Source: Candidatus Aenigmatarchaeota archaeon (GTDB taxonomy: Archaea > Aenigmatarchaeota > Aenigmatarchaeia > QMZP01). From it: a stretch of DNA of 45,235 nt. Numbering within the stretch: position 1 is the first letter of the stretch; each line of letters starts with the position of its first letter. The notes beneath the pieces are model-generated. The model was not told the DNA's origin and did no database searches. It saw only the letters and a list, made by a program, of their open reading frames with translations. The translations under genes and the position numbers were made by a program. The stretch spans positions 1 through 45,235 of the forward strand of contig JADHWJ010000007.1 in the NCBI GenBank assembly GCA_016783545.1. The letters are read 5' to 3'. Positions 1-18,837 of the stretch are shown in pieces.

Positions 1-119
1 GAAGTGAGTTCTATTCTTTGGGATAATACAATTCTCTGTTTTCTTGGAAATTTGTTAACAGTAGGATATATCCATTTAACCAAATCATATGCTTTCTGAA
101 AGAGCAAACTATATGACAT
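1..119 (-). CDS. avd: Avd-like accessory protein of a DGR (N-terminal part only)
   Basis: Reading leftwards from the ATG at 117-119, an open frame runs off the window edge (39 codons visible). It begins MSYSLLFQKAYDLVKWIYP and continues VNKFPRKQRIVLSQRIE. The pattern of an N-terminal helix, a K-FP-x-x-R turn and an R-I-E helix is that of bAvd / S23-like four-helix-bundle proteins, which bind the reverse transcriptase and the template RNA of diversity-generating retroelements. The TR lies immediately upstream and the target gene further upstream on the same strand, the classic target-TR-avd-RT order. An in-frame ATG at 143 and another at 272 (inside the TR) are alternative starts; 119 is chosen because family members start close to this point. 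The rest of avd and the RT should lie beyond position 1. Confidence 0.8.
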   Translation of the reverse strand, partial: MSYSLLFQKAYDLVKWIYPTVNKFPRKQRIVLSQRIELT

Positions 120-147
120 AAGTATAAACTGTCCAGACAGCATTGAA

Positions 148-276
148 CTATTCACAGGAGAACGACCAATCCTGTTGTTCAGGTCAAATGTCTCTGATTT
201 CCTGTTGTCAGGATTCCTGTTGGCGTTCAAGTTGAACCGACCATTATCAGAGTTGAAGAACCTACGGCTCATGATA
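148..276 (-). repeat. DGR template repeat (TR)
   Basis: This 129-nt segment is a near copy of 607-714, the 3' end of the target gene. On the minus strand it reads like coding sequence rich in AAC/AAT codons, the hallmark of a DGR template whose adenines are mutagenised. Over the 108 aligned positions there are 10 substitutions to VR; nine are at TR adenines (TR plus-strand positions 151, 175, 203, 205, 206, 221, 227, 233, 244) and one at a cytosine (204). TR also carries 21 nt (about 181-201) that VR lacks. Both outer ends are otherwise identical, and similarity stops abruptly at 148 and 276. Confidence 0.93.
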
Positions 277-602
277 TAATCTTATAGCCCGATTACCGAA
301 TACATCACTGTTAATATTCATCTATTGATGCGCACCATAACTTTAGCTTCACTTTATAATATTCTACTATTGATATTGAATTTTATGACATAGACAACCT
401 ATGCGCTATAACCAGGCATGTAGTTCAGGCACACGCTAGGCAATGTCAACAGCTAAATCAGTGATTCAACTGTCATAGGCACTGCGTCCTTGGACACACC
501 TACACTGGTGCATAACTGTCTGGGACAGCTGCCCCTACTCTTAGGGACAATAAAGAATTGTATAATATAACTTATATCTTACTCCTGCCTCGCTCCGCTC
601 GG
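277..602. other. Spacer between DGR target gene and TR, GC-richer and hairpin-containing
   Basis: No convincing coding frame is seen. The stretch from about 400 to 550 is richer in G and C than the surrounding DNA and holds short inverted repeats: CTGTC/GACAG at 516-520 and 524-528, CCCTA/TAGGG at 533-537 and 542-546, and GTCC/GGAC near 486-495. A GC-rich imperfect palindrome (about 586-605) directly follows the VR, where several known DGRs carry a hairpin that promotes homing. A role as part of the template RNA or as a homing hairpin is inference. Confidence 0.45.
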
Positions 603-1382
603 CTACCTACTCACAGGAGAACGACCAATCCTGCTGTTCCCAGCGTCAGGATTCCTGTCGGCGTCCAAGTAGAACCGACCACTATCAGAGTTGAAGAACC
701 TACGGCTCATGATAACTTTTCCTTCATATTCATTTCTGCCCCATGAATATGATACTGCATCTCTTGCAAACTCTTCATCTGCTCCAATATCCACCCATGT
801 TCTTTCAGCAGTTTTTCTATCTGGGTTTGTTTTTATTGGAACTCCGTCTTCATCATAAGAACCATCGCATGTTCTTTCTGCATAACCGTTGGCTGGCCAA
901 AGCTTTGGTTTTCTTTCCCCGCCTTTGACTTCTTTTATTATTCCATTTTCAATTACAAGAAGTTCAGGCCTGTTTATAAGCAGAACTCTTTTATAACCTT
1001 CTGGGGCAGGTTTTGATTTGTCTCCGTTGTCAAAATCAACAACAGTCTCTAGTATGTTTCCATGGCCAATTCTGTCGAATTTGTGGCTTAGGTATTCTCT
1101 CTGAGGTTCTGTTAGTCCTATTGCACCTCTTCTTGAAAGTAGATAAATGTTAAATAATGCAACCTCTCCTCCCAGTGTTAAAGAACCTTCTTTGAAAAGA
1201 TCTTCAAAAGTTTTTCCATAGCCTTCTGTTTCACTAACTGTTCCTTCAAATGAGAGCGGCTTTAAGTCTCTTGGTTTCAGTGTCTGTTCTTCAAAACCAT
1301 AGGTTTTGACTGTTTTTCTTTCTTCATGGCCTAGTGGAAGCTCGCTCATATTAAAGTATACGCCTGAATTTTCTGTTGACAT
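603..1382 (-). CDS. DGR target protein with C-terminal variable region
   Basis: 259 residues, no signal peptide and no membrane segment, so probably cytoplasmic. The N-terminal ~145 residues match no family I recognise. The C-terminal ~110 residues contain W-P-A-N-G-Y-A, SYSWGRNEYEG and a final R-F-F-N-S-D-S-G-R-F-Y block, resembling the C-type-lectin/formylglycine-generating-enzyme fold common in DGR targets; the fold assignment is inference. Residues from about 223 to the end are encoded by the VR. A TATA-like box on the minus strand lies about 25 nt before the ATG, so the mRNA is probably leaderless. The displayed residues in the VR are expected to contact an unknown ligand. Confidence 0.88.
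   Translation of the reverse strand: MSTENSGVYFNMSELPLGHEERKTVKTYGFEEQTLKPRDLKPLSFEGTVSETEGYGKTFEDLFKEGSLTLGGEVALFNIYLLSRRGAIGLTEPQREYLSHKFDRIGHGNILETVVDFDNGDKSKPAPEGYKRVLLINRPELLVIENGIIKEVKGGERKPKLWPANGYAERTCDGSYDEDGVPIKTNPDRKTAERTWVDIGADEEFARDAVSYSWGRNEYEGKVIMSRRFFNSDSGRFYLDADRNPDAGNSRIGRSPVSR
607..714 (-). repeat. DGR variable repeat (VR), 3' end of the target gene
   Basis: The last 36 codons of the target gene. Compared with TR, Asn codons have become Ser (AAT to AGT), Tyr (AAC to TAC), Asp (AAC to GAC, twice), Ala (AAC to GCT) and Ser (AAC to AGC), and an Arg codon has become Gly (AGG to GGG). Non-adenine positions are almost all conserved. The repeat runs to the stop codon, as expected for a target with a C-type-lectin-like variable domain at its C-terminus. 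VR is 21 nt (seven codons) shorter than TR, in frame. Confidence 0.93.
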
Positions 1383-2490: not shown

Positions 2491-4482
2491 ATGACTGAGC
2501 TTCTTTGCGAATCTACAAGTTTTTGTGCAGGTTGTGGGGTTTCAATAGCTATAAGGCTGATTTCAAAGGGGTGTCCGGAAAATGTTATAGTTTCTCAAGC
2601 AACAAGTTGTGCTGAAGTTTGCACAAGCATATACCCAAAAACCAGCTGGAATGTTCCATGGGTGCATGCAGCATTTGAAACAGCCGCATCTGTTGCTTCA
2701 GGTATTGAAGCTGCTGTAAAAAAGCTTGGTAAGGACTGGAAAGTGCTCGCAATAGCAGGTGATGGTGGAACAGCTGATATAGGCTTTCAAGCCTTATCAG
2801 GTATGTTGGAAAGAGGGCATAAAGTCACGTTCGTATGCGTAGATAACGAGTCGTATTCTAACTGTCTAAGCCTTTCTACAACTGTAATGACAAAAAATGG
2901 ACTTAAGAAAATAACTGAAATTAAAAAAGGTGATGAAATATATGCCTTTGACCAAAAAAATTATCAGTTGGTTATTAAAAAATGTGATGGTGTATTTGAT
3001 AACGGGAAGAAACGGGTATTTGAAATAGAAACATTACATCACAACATAAAAGCGACATCAAACCATCCATTTTTAGTTCTAGAACACAATGGGCGTGGCA
3101 AATCAAATGGATTTGTATGGAAAACATTATCCAAATTAAGAAAAGGTGATGAAATAGTAGTTCTAAAAAATTTAGATGAAGGGAATTCATATACTTTTAA
3201 ACCAACCAAAATCTCCAGAAAAGGTGACTATAAAGTAAATAAAATAAATCATTCAATTATTCCAAAAAAATCAAGCAAAGAATTGATGGAGTTTCTAGGT
3301 ATCTATGTTGGTGATGGTTGGGTTCGTTCAGGAAAAGGTAGAACAGAAACCGGATTTTCAGTCCCAGAAGATAATAAAACCAGAAAAAGACTATTGAAGC
3401 TAATTGACAACGTATTTGAAGCAAAATCAACCACATCAAAGAATGAAGTTCATATACAATCAATAAATGTTTCTATGTTTATTCGTTCATTGGGGTTAGG
3501 GAAAGGTTCAAAAAATAAAACAATACCAAGTTGGATATTTACATTACCAATCGAAGAAAGAGAAGCATTTATTAAAGGTCTTTTGGCTTCAGATGGCTAT
3601 ATTAGCAATAAAACTAGTATGAGATATGTCTCAGTGAGTTATGATTTGCTTAAGAGATTAAGATTATTACTACAAACAATGGATTATAGAGTAGGGAAAA
3701 TTCATTGGAGAAAAACTCCAAAAGGTACCCATTGTGTTTATAGAAAATTATTAAAAGATTCGTGGAGTGGGTATGTTTGTTTTAGTAAAAAACATAATTG
3801 GAATATAAAAGATTATAGCTCTCAATATCGTTATCAAAATTTTCTCATAGAAAATAAACATTTCAACACTGAGATTATAAAATCTAAAAAACCATGTGGC
3901 ATTGAACCTACATTAGATCTAAGAATTGAAGGAGAACATAATTTCATTGCAGATGGTATAGTTGTTCATAATACCGGTGTCCAGCGTTCAGGTGCAACAC
4001 CATACGGTGCATGGACAACAACATCTCCTCCTGGAAAAGAGAATCCAATAGGTAACAAAACATTCAAAAAACCCATAGCAGAAATTGCAGCTGCTCATGG
4101 TATTCCATATGTGGCCACAGCGTCTATTGCATATCCTGCTGATTTAATAGAGAAAACAAAAAAGGCTTTTGAAAACCAGCCGTCGTTTTTGCACATACAC
4201 TGCCCATGCCCGGTTGGCTGGAAATCTGACACAGCAAAGGTTGTGGGAACAGCAAAACTCGCAGTTGAAACAGGAATGTGGGCTCTTTTTGAGATAAATA
4301 ACGGCCAAATGGTAATTACCAAAAGGGTTGGAAAAAAGAAGCCTATAGAAGAATATCTTGCAGGCCAGGGTAGATTTAAGCATATTCTTGGGAATAAAGA
4401 AGAGATTAAGAAGATACAAAAACATATAGATTCTGAATGGGAAAGATTCGAAAGAATAGAAAAATCTGGCACTAGGTTCTAA
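2491..4482 (+). CDS. porB: Pyruvate/2-oxoacid:ferredoxin oxidoreductase beta subunit, intein-interrupted
   Basis: The beta subunit of 2-oxoacid:ferredoxin oxidoreductase binds thiamine diphosphate and an Fe-S cluster; with alpha/gamma/delta subunits it oxidises pyruvate to acetyl-CoA. The N-terminal extein (residues 1-124) has the cluster ligands CAGCG and the TPP/Mg motif GDGGTADIG ... DNESYSN. An intein (residues 125-494) follows, and the C-extein resumes with TGVQRSGATPYGAW. The spliced protein would be 293 residues, the normal family size. No porA, porG or porD lies beside it, so the partners are encoded elsewhere. A TATA-like element (about 2451-2459) precedes the start with a very short leader. 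The annotation as PorB rather than another 2-oxoacid class rests on overall similarity. Confidence 0.93.
   Translation: MTELLCESTSFCAGCGVSIAIRLISKGCPENVIVSQATSCAEVCTSIYPKTSWNVPWVHAAFETAASVASGIEAAVKKLGKDWKVLAIAGDGGTADIGFQALSGMLERGHKVTFVCVDNESYSNCLSLSTTVMTKNGLKKITEIKKGDEIYAFDQKNYQLVIKKCDGVFDNGKKRVFEIETLHHNIKATSNHPFLVLEHNGRGKSNGFVWKTLSKLRKGDEIVVLKNLDEGNSYTFKPTKISRKGDYKVNKINHSIIPKKSSKELMEFLGIYVGDGWVRSGKGRTETGFSVPEDNKTRKRLLKLIDNVFEAKSTTSKNEVHIQSINVSMFIRSLGLGKGSKNKTIPSWIFTLPIEEREAFIKGLLASDGYISNKTSMRYVSVSYDLLKRLRLLLQTMDYRVGKIHWRKTPKGTHCVYRKLLKDSWSGYVCFSKKHNWNIKDYSSQYRYQNFLIENKHFNTEIIKSKKPCGIEPTLDLRIEGEHNFIADGIVVHNTGVQRSGATPYGAWTTTSPPGKENPIGNKTFKKPIAEIAAAHGIPYVATASIAYPADLIEKTKKAFENQPSFLHIHCPCPVGWKSDTAKVVGTAKLAVETGMWALFEINNGQMVITKRVGKKKPIEEYLAGQGRFKHILGNKEEIKKIQKHIDSEWERFERIEKSGTRF
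2863..3972 (+). mobile_element. Intein in PorB with LAGLIDADG homing endonuclease
   Basis: 370 residues. It begins with Cys1 (CLSLSTTVMTKNG, block A), has the block B motif TSNHPF, two LAGLIDADG helices (LMEFLGIYVGDGW and EAFIKGLLASDGY, both with acidic residues intact), and ends FIADGIVVHN with the penultimate His and terminal Asn. The +1 residue of the C-extein is Thr. It sits between Asn and Thr of the N-T-G segment of the TPP/Mg-binding motif, so the precursor cannot fold an active site until splicing. The endonuclease looks functional by its motifs. Confidence 0.93.
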
Positions 4483-4790: not shown

Positions 4791-5903
4791 TTACAAGATT
4801 ATTGGTATTCCAAGTTCTTGTGTGTAGTCTTTCTTTTGTGACTCTGTCATTACTGCAGGTCCTAAAATCCATGGGCTCTTGACCCCGGTTACTATTGTTA
4901 TTACTCTTATTTTTCCTTGAAATTCAGGGTCTATTCTACTACCCCATATCACATGCGCACTTGGGTTTAACTGTTTAGAGACAAACTCTCCCACCACATT
5001 CACTTCATCCAGTCTCATATCCGGACCACCTGTCACATGTATCAATGCACCTGTACCTCCTTCATAACTGACTTCAAGCAATGGATTTGACATTGCCTTT
5101 GTTACTGCATCTTCTGCTCTGTTTTCAGAGTTTGATTCACCAAAGCCAACGGTTGATACACCACCAGATCTCATTATTGCTTTCACATCTGCGTAGTCTA
5201 GATTCACAAGACTTGGTTCTGCTATTGTTTCTGTCACTCCTTTTATTGTAGATGCTATGAGGTTATCTGCAACGCCGAATGCCTGCTGTACTGGCAGGTC
5301 TCCTGCTATTTTTAATAACCTATCGTTTTCTATTACAATTACTGTATCACATACCTGTCTTAGACTGTGCAATCCTTCTTCTGCCTTTCCTATTCTTGCA
5401 CCCTCTATCTTAAAGGGCATTGTTACACATCCTATTACTATTGCGCCCATTTCTTTTGCAATTTTTGCAACAACGGGTCCAGCGCCTGTTCCTGTTCCTC
5501 CACCGAGTCCTGATATGAGGAATACCATATCTGTTTCTTCAAGTAGTTTTTTCAGCTCTCTTTCACTTTCTTCAGCTGCTTTCCTGCCAACTTCAACATA
5601 TCCTCCACTACCAAGGCCTTTTGTTGCTTCCTTTCCTATTAGAATTTTTTTGTCTGCATTTGTTATCTGCAAATGCTTTACATCTGTATTTAGTGCTATT
5701 GTCTGTGCACCGTTTATACCCATATTAGTTAGCCTCGTGACACAGTTGTTGCCTGCACCACCAACACCTACTACAAGTATTCTTGCTTCTTTCACATCAA
5801 CACCAAACTCCTCTTGAATGGGTTGTTTAGAAACTGCTTCTTGTTTCTCTTCCTCCTTTTTCTCAAAAACTCTCTCAAATACATCTTGGACCAAAGGTTC
5901 CAT
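4791..5903 (-). CDS. ftsZ: Cell division protein FtsZ
   Basis: Tubulin-like GTPase that polymerises into the cytokinetic ring. Seen: the nucleotide-binding start ILVVGVGGAGNN (residues 42-53), the tubulin signature GGGTGTG (134-140), and the T7 loop NLDYADV (234-240) with the catalytic aspartates. A ~35-residue acidic/Lys-rich N-terminal extension precedes the core. The protein is 370 residues and ends GIPIIL. A strong Shine-Dalgarno (GGGAGGTG) precedes the ATG and a TATA-like element lies at about 5959-5973, so unlike many neighbours this mRNA has a leader. It is not embedded in a cell-wall cluster. Only one FtsZ is in the window. Confidence 0.97.
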   Translation of the reverse strand: MEPLVQDVFERVFEKKEEEKQEAVSKQPIQEEFGVDVKEARILVVGVGGAGNNCVTRLTNMGINGAQTIALNTDVKHLQITNADKKILIGKEATKGLGSGGYVEVGRKAAEESERELKKLLEETDMVFLISGLGGGTGTGAGPVVAKIAKEMGAIVIGCVTMPFKIEGARIGKAEEGLHSLRQVCDTVIVIENDRLLKIAGDLPVQQAFGVADNLIASTIKGVTETIAEPSLVNLDYADVKAIMRSGGVSTVGFGESNSENRAEDAVTKAMSNPLLEVSYEGGTGALIHVTGGPDMRLDEVNVVGEFVSKQLNPSAHVIWGSRIDPEFQGKIRVITIVTGVKSPWILGPAVMTESQKKDYTQELGIPIIL

Positions 5904-6171
5904 ATCTCACACCTCCCTTAAATCATGCCACGTTAAGATGAGATTACTCTCAACACAGCATGTTAAATATATTGACTTGAACATATACATCCAAATCGCG
6001 AAATCTTTATTAATAAAGATTTCAAATATTAACTAATCTTTTTTGTAAGAAAAAGTCCAAAATTCCCCCAGACTAATTCAATCCCCCAATTGAATGCAGT
6101 CTACTAATTCTAACACGGTTTAAAATATGTTGAATTATTTTTGTATTTATTATTTATAAAGTTTATGAAAA
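5904..6171. promoter_or_regulatory. ftsZ upstream region with palindromes
   Basis: 268 bases without a gene. It holds the ftsZ TATA element and ribosome-binding site, a perfect 24-nt palindrome at 6000-6023 (half-site GAAATCTTTATT), and a two-tier hairpin at 6070-6102 (outer AGACT/AGTCT, inner ATTCAAT/ATTGAAT with a C-rich loop). The hairpin could end transcription from the gene at 6172-6582 on the same strand; the palindrome looks like an operator for a dimeric regulator. Both roles are inference. Confidence 0.45.
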
Positions 6172-15282: not shown

Positions 15283-18200
15283 ATGATAACAAAACTAAAA
15301 CTAAAGAACTGGAAATCTCATCTGGATTCTGATTTTGATTTCACCAAAGGCGTCAATGGATTAATGGGAATTATGGGAGCAGGTAAGTCTATACCCAGCA
15401 ATGAAATTATACTTGTGAAGAAAAATGGTGTATGGAAAAAATGTGAGATTGGTGAACTTATAGAAAATGAAATAAAAAAGTCAAAGAATGTTACTAATTC
15501 GAATGGTAGTTTTTTTTTGACAAACACCAAAAATATAGAAGCTCAGACACTAAATTGTGAAAATTTAAAAATGGAGAAAAGAAAAATAAAGGGGTTTATA
15601 AAACATACTTCACCAAGAAAGCTTCTAGAGATTACTACAAGAAGTGGGAGAAGAATCACTATAACAAAAGATCACTCAATGCTATCCTTTAAAAATGGAG
15701 CAATAGTTCCTTTCAAAGGTTCTGATCTTAGATTAGGTGATTTTATACCTTGCGTAAAAAAGATGAATCTAAAAACCAATAAAAAATCAATTAATTTATA
15801 TAAAACCCTACCAGAATTTAGGGAAACCACCAATATAATTGAAGGATTGAAACTTGTTAAAGATAATTTATCTCCATATAAAGCATCAAAGATTACAGGA
15901 ATAACAGAAAGTACTTTTGAATATTGGAGACAAAAAAATAATCTTCCAATGAGTAATCATATTATAGGGAAAACCATAAAAACTGCAATTTCAAAAAATA
16001 TAAATTTTTCTGATAATTTCACCAAATTAGCAGGAGCATATTTATCAGAAGGTCATGTTCAATATAATTTAGAAAAATATAGATATGGGGTAAAGATAAC
16101 AAATAATGATATAAATTTTATAGAAACAGTAAAGAAATGCTGGATAGATGTTTTTCCATACATACCATATAATTATATTCAAAATGATCTGCAAATGAAC
16201 GGGAAAGTTGTTTCTGCTCTATTTTCAAGATTATTTGGAAAGAAATCTGGAAATAAAAAAATTCCTGATTTTCTATATGGAGTCGATAATAAATTAATAT
16301 CAAATTTATTAATGATGTATTTTGAAGGTGATGGTTGGGTTGTTGCAGATCGTGAACTAGCATGCTCATCTAAAAGCCTAAAATTAATAGATGGCTTGTC
16401 TACATTGTTTTCTAAATTTGGTATAATAACAACTATCAGAGAAAGAAAAATTAAAGATAATTCATATTACAATTTAAAAATTCTACCTAAACATGCCAAC
16501 GATTTTGCTAAGAATATAAATTTTCTAACAGAAAGGAAAAAGAAAAAATTGGACACTTTTGTTAATATGATAAATAATAGAAAAAGCTGGGATGGTATAG
16601 ATGTTATACCAAACATAGATGGTTTATTACAAAAATTAATTTATGAATATCATCTTTATTCTAAAAAAATACCAGAAATGCGCTCTTTAGCTATGCAATT
16701 TAGAATTTATATGAGATATGAAACTATAGGCAGAGAGAAACTAAAAAGGTCATTAAAAATAATATTTGAACGTTTTGGATTTAAAACAAAAACATTCAGA
16801 TTACTTGAAAAAATCATTGAATCTGACATATTCTTTGACAAAATAAAAGAGATAAAGGAGATAGACGCACCATCTAAATATGTTTATGATTTATCTGTAG
16901 AAGATACAGAAAACTTTGTAGCTGGTATAGGTAATTTAATTACACATAACAGTTCAATAGTTCAAGGTATAAGCTTTGCTCTTTTTGGAACATTCCCAGG
17001 GCTTCAGGCAAGAAAGCTAATTCTAGATGACCTCATAATGAGGAAGCCTAATAAAAAGAATTTCGCGCAGATTGAACTGGAATTTATTGTAAATGGCGAT
17101 ACCTATAATGTTCTAAGAGAAATTGTGATTGGAAAGGGTACAACAAAAACCGATCTAAGGAAGAATGGTAGTATGATAGAGGTTTCACCGAAGGCTGTTA
17201 CAAAAGTTATTGAAGATCTGCTCCAGATGGATTACGAACTATTCTCAAAGGCTGTTTATTCAGAACAGAATGGAATTGATTATTTTCTTAGGATTCCAAG
17301 AGGGCATAGAATGGAACATATAGATAAAATGTTAAAAGTTGATAGATTCGAAAAGGCAAGGGAACAAACAGTTTCTGTTAAAAATAAATTGAAAATAAGC
17401 ATAGAAGAAAAGCTAAGATTTATCTCAGAGATGGAAAAAGAGGGTTTGGGTGAAAAAATAAAAGAAGAGGAAAAGGAAATAACCAGATTAGAGAATAAAT
17501 CTAATGATTTGCAAAAGAACATGCTGAAACTTAAAGAAATAACAGAAAAACTTGTCAGCAATATATCAGCATATGAAACCAATGAAAACAAACTAAATGA
17601 AATGAAAATAGAGGTTAAAGGTTTGACATCAGGGATATCTGAGATTGAAAAAAATTTAAATGGGGCTTCTGGAGATTCTGAATCAGTGTCAAAAGAAATT
17701 GAAATTTCTGAGAGGATCATGAGCCGTATAACAAATAGTTTGGATAATAAAACAAGACATGTTGAAAAAATAAGGGATAAAATAGCTTCTATGAACACTG
17801 AAATGAAAATAATAGATGAATCCATATTGGAATTGGAAAGGGTTAAAGGAAAGTGCCCTGTCTGTGAGACAGAGATCACAGAAAACAAGAGAGATAAGAT
17901 TGCTTCTGACAGATTAAAGGAACAAGAAAAGCTCAGGGAGGGTGTCAAGAATTTTGTGGCAGAGCTTGATGATGCTGATAAAGAGAAAGAATCCCTGGAA
18001 GAAAAGCTAAAAGAAAATGAAACAAAAAGGCAAAAAATGATTAATCTTTTAGATGAAATGAACAAGATAGAGGAACTTAGGAAAAGGAAAGAAGAATACA
18101 AAAAAAGAAGCGATTTTTTAAAATCAAAAATTAGTTCTCTGGAAAATAAATCAAAAAAGGTTGATATAAATTCCCTTAAAGAAGAACTACATGAAAAGAA

Positions 18201-18837
18201 AAAATTAGAAGGTTCTATTTCAACTGAACTCGATAGTTTAACAGAAAGATTAAAGGAGAAAGATAATACGCTAAGAGACCTTAAGGAGAGAGAAGGGAAA
18301 TTGAAAGATTATAAAAAAGAGGCAGAAATAGATGAAAAATTAATAGGAGCGTTGATTTCATTTGAGAATGTGCTAAAGATAACACAAGACCAATTAAGGG
18401 ATGAATTCCTTAAAACAGTCAACCAAATAATGAATTCTGTATGGAATGAGCTCTATCCATATGATGATTTTCCTGAAATAAGGTTATTTATAGAGGGTGA
18501 TTATATACTTCAATTAAGGGCCTCAGATGGAAACTGGCTCTCTGTAGAGGGCATAGTTTCTGGCGGAGAGCGTTCTATGGCCGCCCTGGCTTTGCGCATT
18601 GCCTTCAGTCTTGCTTTTATACCCAATCTGAAGTGGTTAATACTGGATGAACCTACCCATAATTTGGATAGTGCTGCAATCGATCGTTTTTCAGAAGTTC
18701 TTGGAGAGAAGATGGAAAGCTTTGCAGAACAGGTTTTTTTGATTACACACGAAGAAAGGCTTTCAGAAGGAATAACAGGTAAATTGTATAGATTGGAAAG
18801 GGATAAGGAAAGTGATGGGGTTACAATATTCAAATGA
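15283..18837 (+). CDS. rad50: DNA repair ATPase Rad50, intein-interrupted and short-armed
   Basis: SMC-like ATPase that works with Mre11 at DNA double-strand breaks. Precursor 1184 residues; removal of a 521-residue intein (residues 36-556) leaves 663. The N-extein ends GIMGAGK and the C-extein starts SSIVQGISFALFG, rebuilding a perfect Walker A. Zinc hook CPVC at residues 858-861 (337-340 spliced); signature VSGGERSMAAL and Walker B WLILDEPTHNLD near the end. Coiled-coil arms are much shorter than in the ~880-residue archaeal proteins. mre11 is not adjacent, unlike in many archaea. Start ATG gives the family N-terminus (KLKLKNWKSH). Confidence 0.95.
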   Translation: MITKLKLKNWKSHLDSDFDFTKGVNGLMGIMGAGKSIPSNEIILVKKNGVWKKCEIGELIENEIKKSKNVTNSNGSFFLTNTKNIEAQTLNCENLKMEKRKIKGFIKHTSPRKLLEITTRSGRRITITKDHSMLSFKNGAIVPFKGSDLRLGDFIPCVKKMNLKTNKKSINLYKTLPEFRETTNIIEGLKLVKDNLSPYKASKITGITESTFEYWRQKNNLPMSNHIIGKTIKTAISKNINFSDNFTKLAGAYLSEGHVQYNLEKYRYGVKITNNDINFIETVKKCWIDVFPYIPYNYIQNDLQMNGKVVSALFSRLFGKKSGNKKIPDFLYGVDNKLISNLLMMYFEGDGWVVADRELACSSKSLKLIDGLSTLFSKFGIITTIRERKIKDNSYYNLKILPKHANDFAKNINFLTERKKKKLDTFVNMINNRKSWDGIDVIPNIDGLLQKLIYEYHLYSKKIPEMRSLAMQFRIYMRYETIGREKLKRSLKIIFERFGFKTKTFRLLEKIIESDIFFDKIKEIKEIDAPSKYVYDLSVEDTENFVAGIGNLITHNSSIVQGISFALFGTFPGLQARKLILDDLIMRKPNKKNFAQIELEFIVNGDTYNVLREIVIGKGTTKTDLRKNGSMIEVSPKAVTKVIEDLLQMDYELFSKAVYSEQNGIDYFLRIPRGHRMEHIDKMLKVDRFEKAREQTVSVKNKLKISIEEKLRFISEMEKEGLGEKIKEEEKEITRLENKSNDLQKNMLKLKEITEKLVSNISAYETNENKLNEMKIEVKGLTSGISEIEKNLNGASGDSESVSKEIEISERIMSRITNSLDNKTRHVEKIRDKIASMNTEMKIIDESILELERVKGKCPVCETEITENKRDKIASDRLKEQEKLREGVKNFVAELDDADKEKESLEEKLKENETKRQKMINLLDEMNKIEELRKRKEEYKKRSDFLKSKISSLENKSKKVDINSLKEELHEKKKLEGSISTELDSLTERLKEKDNTLRDLKEREGKLKDYKKEAEIDEKLIGALISFENVLKITQDQLRDEFLKTVNQIMNSVWNELYPYDDFPEIRLFIEGDYILQLRASDGNWLSVEGIVSGGERSMAALALRIAFSLAFIPNLKWLILDEPTHNLDSAAIDRFSEVLGEKMESFAEQVFLITHEERLSEGITGKLYRLERDKESDGVTIFK
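15388..16950 (+). mobile_element. Intein in Rad50 (inside Walker A) with LAGLIDADG endonuclease
   Basis: 521 residues. It begins with Ser1 (SIPSNEIILVKKNG), carries the block B motif TKDH, two LAGLIDADG-type helices (LAGAYLSEGH and LLMMYFEGDGW), and ends GIGNLITHN with penultimate His and final Asn; +1 is Ser. Junctions fall between Lys and Ser of G-K-S in the P-loop, the most conserved point of the protein. A long region before the endonuclease helices (about residues 180-235) looks helix-turn-helix-like (KASKITGITESTFEYWR), perhaps a DNA-recognition part. Base composition is more AT-rich than the exteins. Confidence 0.93.

Follow-up and report, generated by a model that had tools for sequence, protein, structure and literature searches.

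The template repeat (TR) of a diversity-generating retroelement (DGR) in an archaeal chromosome is interrupted by a short insert that resembles a bulge-helix-bulge (BHB) intron and has no counterpart in the variable repeat (VR), and similar interruptions recur across the phylum. TR/VR alignments and RNA folds make it very likely that the tRNA-splicing endonuclease acts on the TR RNA, which would thus be spliced ahead of mutagenic retrohoming. The locus lies in the window, i.e., the whole 45,235-nt stretch of DNA analysed here, which makes up all of contig C15 in a genome of 886 kb that is 70% complete; both the genome and its endonuclease are archaeal. Because archaeal DGRs have already been described (PMC4372165, PMC5006420), the headline of the original prediction, a DGR in an archaeal chromosome, is not new; the TR introns appear to be the novelty. 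A literature search, which was not exhaustive, found no report linking DGRs with bulge-helix-bulge motifs or template splicing.

The DGR-A cassette and its genome

The locus in the window, DGR-A, was confirmed as a chromosomal DGR, with target, VR, TR and avd following one another on the minus strand. The target (variable) protein gene (603–1382, 259 aa) carries at its 3' end the 108-nt VR (714–607), and the 129-nt TR (148–276) lies 330 nt downstream on the same strand; the alignment bore out these originally predicted repeats and their coordinates. A structured template RNA leader (279–457, minus strand) matches the Rfam family RT-16 RNA (RF03019). As had also been predicted, nine of the ten substitutions fall at TR adenines, with 9 of 31 adenines changed vs 1 of 77 other positions in the gapped TR/VR alignment (Fisher p = 4e-5). 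The Avd-like gene start proved real: the 5' part of avd (1–143, minus strand), which continues into contig C16, matched the Pfam profile bAvd (PF22296) with an E value of 1.7e-13 and 51.4 bits (cut-off 40). The reverse transcriptase (RT) expected past position 1 is present on C16 (43490–44566, minus strand, 359 aa), downstream of avd and after a tract of 10 G. It contains GMPIGNLTSQ, in which IGNLTSQ is the [IVL]GxxxSQ-type motif of DGR RTs, as well as YVDD, and it scored 72 bits against RVT_1. Its best PDB match, by a wide margin, is 8ub7 (5e-50); enzymes of the retron type and of group II reach about 1e-23. The 8ub7 entry is named 'Reverse transcriptase', and we take it to be the RT of the BPP-1 DGR. 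The adenine bias, one-strand layout, RT motif and avd profile match thus support the original interpretation. A possible hairpin read from the sequence after the VR (GCCGAGC-GGA-GCGAGGC, 587–603, minus strand) has a GGA loop and a tandem G.A in the stem.

The N-terminal domain of the target was described at the outset as lacking a recognisable family, and searches of Pfam, NCBIfam and PHROGs likewise returned none for the protein. No profile match to AvpA or other C-type lectins was obtained, and the low-confidence AlphaFold model (pLDDT 62, built from 7 sequences), examined for the C-type lectin or Ig fold of DGR targets, gave no Foldseek/PDB match. Proteins related to this target serve as targets in further DGRs of the phylum. 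Among such targets, the homologous proteins of loci L079 and L081 match in swapped order (residues 142–242 with 14–115, and 9–133 with 124–231), resembling a circular permutation or a cassette rearrangement.

The join between C15 and C16 is probably correct. The first 36 nt of the window are identical to the end of C16, and avd can be read from one contig into the other without a break. The join is graded only as probable because this contig end sits inside a repeat of 114 nt that a second cassette, DGR-B, carries in identical form on contig C18. Since C18 was assembled through the repeat, C15 and C16 remain as partners; a swap is still possible. Elsewhere in the window, two regions of the plus strand (2491–4482 and 15283–18837) look like intein insertions with endonuclease-like motifs, their hosts being a 2-oxoacid:ferredoxin oxidoreductase beta-like gene and the Walker A region of a Rad50-like gene.

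In total, the genome carries three DGR cassettes. DGR-A (window and C16) consists of target, TR, avd and RT; DGR-B (C18, 2666–4504) has target, TR and avd, with no RT after avd; and DGR-C (C17) has target, TR and RT, with no avd. Substitutions affect 14 of 27 TR adenines in DGR-B vs 0 of 77 non-A positions, and 20 of 25 in DGR-C vs 0 of 69. The parts may work in trans, for example with DGR-B using the RT of another cassette.

G runs of at least 8 nt occur in the 886-kb genome only in these three cassettes (C16:44555–44564, C17:1756–1768 and C18:2698–2706). Across the phylum, 17 of about 31 DGR loci have runs of at least 9 inside them or close by, located either between target and TR or where avd meets the RT gene; none was found upstream of the RT in 40 loci of the sister phylum. 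Tracts of 9–13 G were also seen at L040–L046, L073, L074, L078, L080, L083, L084, L086 and L088, in many cases where avd gives way to the RT gene, directly at its start codon. The DGR-A RT starts with ATG GGG GGG GGG; slippage there could turn RT expression on or off, and the tracts possibly act as a phase-variation switch for the RT or have some other function. Their position differs between cassettes, which counts against a simple phase-switch reading.

Interrupted templates with BHB-like geometry

Comparison of the DGR-A TR (129 nt) and VR (108 nt) revealed that the difference is a single clean 21-nt gap (window 198–178, minus strand), which the original prediction had passed over; it divides the TR into exons 276–199 and 177–148. 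In the TR the insert stands in the context CAGG AA^A tcagagacatttga CCTG AA^C. The minimum free energy RNA fold, CAGG - AAA - UCAGA(gaca)UUUGA - CCUG - AAC, shows a central helix in which the end of the exon pairs with that of the intron (4 of 4 bp), followed by a 3-nt bulge and a 5-bp inner helix. Cutting after nt 2 of each bulge and joining would give GACAACAGGAA|CAACAGG, which is compatible with the VR. Slippage between the two copies of ACAACAGGA was rejected as an origin of the insert, because the copies are 30 nt apart and the loss is 21 nt. ARAGORN detected no tRNA for a tRNA-intron comparison in the window or in nine fetched loci.

An RT search of 156 genomes in the window's phylum gave strong matches in 25, or 23 at a stricter cut-off, and TR and VR were aligned at 23 loci using a splice-aware aligner without structural knowledge. 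Introns were found in the TRs of 20 of these loci, i.e., 20 DGRs from 18 genomes; the TRs of DGR-B and L046 are uninterrupted, and L071 gave neither call. The 20 DGRs contain 41 gaps of 15–58 nt, at most three per TR, and the gaps are always in the VR and never in the TR. Exon mismatches in the interrupted DGRs affect 346 of 615 adenines vs 8 of 1737 other bases. Exons of at least 28 nt match, within their own locus, only themselves and their one VR. The uninterrupted TRs of L046 and DGR-B run straight through CAGGAAC, as an empty site would. A search of viral contigs showed no close RT, and two DGR RT genes have one in-frame stop codon each (G090:C4:116192–117235 and G119:C4:1401–2399).

Structural analysis of the gaps indicated a shared geometry. 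A null in which the junction sequence was held fixed was judged too generous and was replaced by one with shuffled inserts and VR-compatible junctions. A perfect 4-bp central helix is formed in the canonical position at VR-consistent junctions in 29 of the 41 gaps (null mean 1.7, maximum 8 in 2000 shuffles), the other 12 having a mismatch, and 25 gaps combine the central helix with an inner one of 3 bp or more (null mean 0.07, maximum 2). The distances from helix to cut are symmetric on both sides, falling on the grid diagonal with a peak at 2–3 nt. Nucleotide 3 of the 5' bulge and nucleotide 1 of the 3' bulge are A in 41 of 41 cases, and since the nucleotide there is always A, cuts at bulge nt 2/3 and 3/4 look the same. 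The inner helices covary, and the central helices CAGG/CCUG and UGCG/CGCA are unchanged. The 5' bulge and the inner helix stand out clearly. The outer helix is mostly short or missing, with 0–3 bp beside the 3' bulge and often an open loop on the 3' side, so the motifs are relaxed BHBs. Written unmutated into the VR, the spliced TR would leave the target ORF intact in 20 of 20 DGRs; the unspliced TR would break it in 8 of 20.

In the sister phylum (the Woese- and Pacearchaeota group), the TRs of 24 of 28 DGR loci are without BHB introns, and four loci have them (L133, L134, L135 and L153, with gaps inspected singly). The gaps of L152 and L163 were rejected as alignment run-on beyond the TR end, and those of L143 and L162 as small differences of 3–6 nt. 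The TRs of all three bacterial DGR loci examined are uninterrupted. At L135 (G324:C22), one TR (5837–5942) serves two VRs (2956–3058 and 5484–5567), all on the RT strand. The 18-nt intron is gone from one VR; in the other it is kept, 3 A shorter and with its adenines changed to G. Intron loss is therefore optional at this locus, the TR having fed one VR with and one without the intron, and the adenine-mutated copy places the insert in the template when that VR was written.

Proposed splicing of the template RNA and its alternatives

The EndA gene of the genome (L098:848–2023, 392 aa) gave a full-length match to the epsilon2 enzyme of ARMAN-2 (PDB 4fz2, E 3e-101), and the splicing endonuclease family PF01974 is present in 21 of 21 genomes searched. 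Enzymes of the epsilon2 type have broad BHB specificity and accept relaxed substrates (PMC12397907, PMC7714728). The ARMAN-2 complex has its scissile phosphate at the third nucleotide of the bulge, which is likewise an A; R275 and W384 clamp the first bulged A between them (PMC12397907). Of the 21 genomes searched, 17 encode RtcB; it was not seen in the present genome, which is 70% complete. We infer that the insert is removed at the RNA level by EndA. In the proposed mechanism, the template RNA, consisting of the RT-16 leader and the TR, would be transcribed with the short BHB-type intron inside the TR; the cell's epsilon2-type endonuclease would cut in both bulges, and a ligase, presumably RtcB, would join the exons. 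The RT-Avd complex would then copy the spliced template into adenine-mutagenised cDNA, which would replace the VR in the target gene.

The main rival to splicing is that the RT itself jumps the hairpin while copying the TR RNA, so that the insert is lost during cDNA synthesis with no endonuclease involved. Almost every insert is a hairpin, most of them with 3 bp or more in the inner helix, and the optional loss at L135 would also fit such jumping. However, a jump across the stem base would drop both strands of the central helix, whereas the 5' strand (e.g. CAGG) and two bulge nucleotides always stay and the 3' strand alone is lost, as in BHB splicing. Inserts are also absent from the bacterial DGR loci examined, and we regard jumping as improbable. 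An even smaller probability, close to negligible, is given to a late arrival of the inserts in TRs whose present VRs already existed, or to DNA deletion from the VRs, either of which would dispense with splicing. The repeats are snapshots, and a single indel could explain each pair alone; this reading is nevertheless disfavoured by the one-sided placement of all 41 gaps, nearly all with BHB-like geometry, and by the retained, mutated intron of L135.

DGR-A may be currently active, although changes at only 9 of the 31 TR adenines count against recent activity. That low number would suit a relic in decay whose TR, intron and RT have ceased to cooperate, as would a target that stops at a TAG, matched by TTG in DGR-B, and is missing the C-terminal tail found in homologues, and an RT that follows a poly-G tract in a frame different from that of avd. 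On the other side stand RT and avd ORFs that, given a correct contig join, are intact, and a TR and VR that are almost identical at non-A positions, and we consider decay rather unlikely. With template splicing as the preferred reading, L135 is the first hint that the process could be regulated, the intron being kept or removed to yield target loops of different length. This extension is doubtful, a shade less so than decay of DGR-A; if true, combinatorial alternative splicing would form a second layer of diversification atop adenine mutagenesis.

Comparison with known systems

In the excerpts considered here, the archaeal DGRs of the DUSEL4 Nanoarchaeota and the Woese- and Pacearchaeota (Paul 2015; AvpA, Handa 2016) resemble the present ones: target, TR and RT share a strand, often with avd, the substitutions are adenine-specific, a small genome carries several DGRs, the target proteins are orphans and a GRA-loop hairpin follows the VR; the GRA-loop hairpins (PMC4372165) are comparable to the post-VR hairpin candidate of DGR-A. 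They differ in that these excerpts make no mention of a TR interruption.

The leader directly upstream of the DGR-A TR scored 61.1 bits against RF03019 in a full-length covariance model match, above the gathering score of 50; the DGR-C leader scored 80 bits and the DGR-B leader 42, below that score. To our knowledge, the RT-16 RNA family has been defined solely by nearness to RT genes. Here, in contrast, it can be placed immediately 5' of an intron-bearing DGR template, which makes RT-16 RNA the 5' leader of archaeal DGR template RNAs and may give the family a role.

Canonical archaeal BHBs have a 4-bp helix and two 3-nt bulges, and tRNA introns span 11–129 nt (PMC4090602). The TR introns, at 15–58 nt, share with the BHB introns of tRNA, rRNA and a few mRNAs (e.g. 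cbf5) the 4-bp central helix, the 3-nt bulge or bulges, a predicted cut within the bulges and the presence of an epsilon2-type endonuclease. They differ in sitting in a retroelement template, where a TR of about 110 nt can hold as many as three, and in often having no outer helix. The archaeal tRNA-splicing endonuclease thus gains a new class of likely substrate. Two questions are raised: does EndA control the timing of target mutation, and does the intron shield the TR from overwriting?

Among the protein diversifiers of prokaryotes, none more powerful than DGRs is known. DGR finders that seek near-identical ungapped repeats would detect interrupted templates poorly, so DGRs of this kind may be under-counted in archaea. 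As far as we know, demonstrations of the RNA step in retrohoming have all used engineered introns. In work on phage BPP-1 ascribed to Guo et al. in 2008, the TR was reportedly tagged with a td intron whose loss in the VR is said to prove an RNA intermediate. The likeness is that an intron in the TR is gone from the VR; the difference is that the intron there was an engineered group I intron, whereas those described here are natural and BHB-type. The natural TR introns would amount to that intron-tag experiment done many times by nature.
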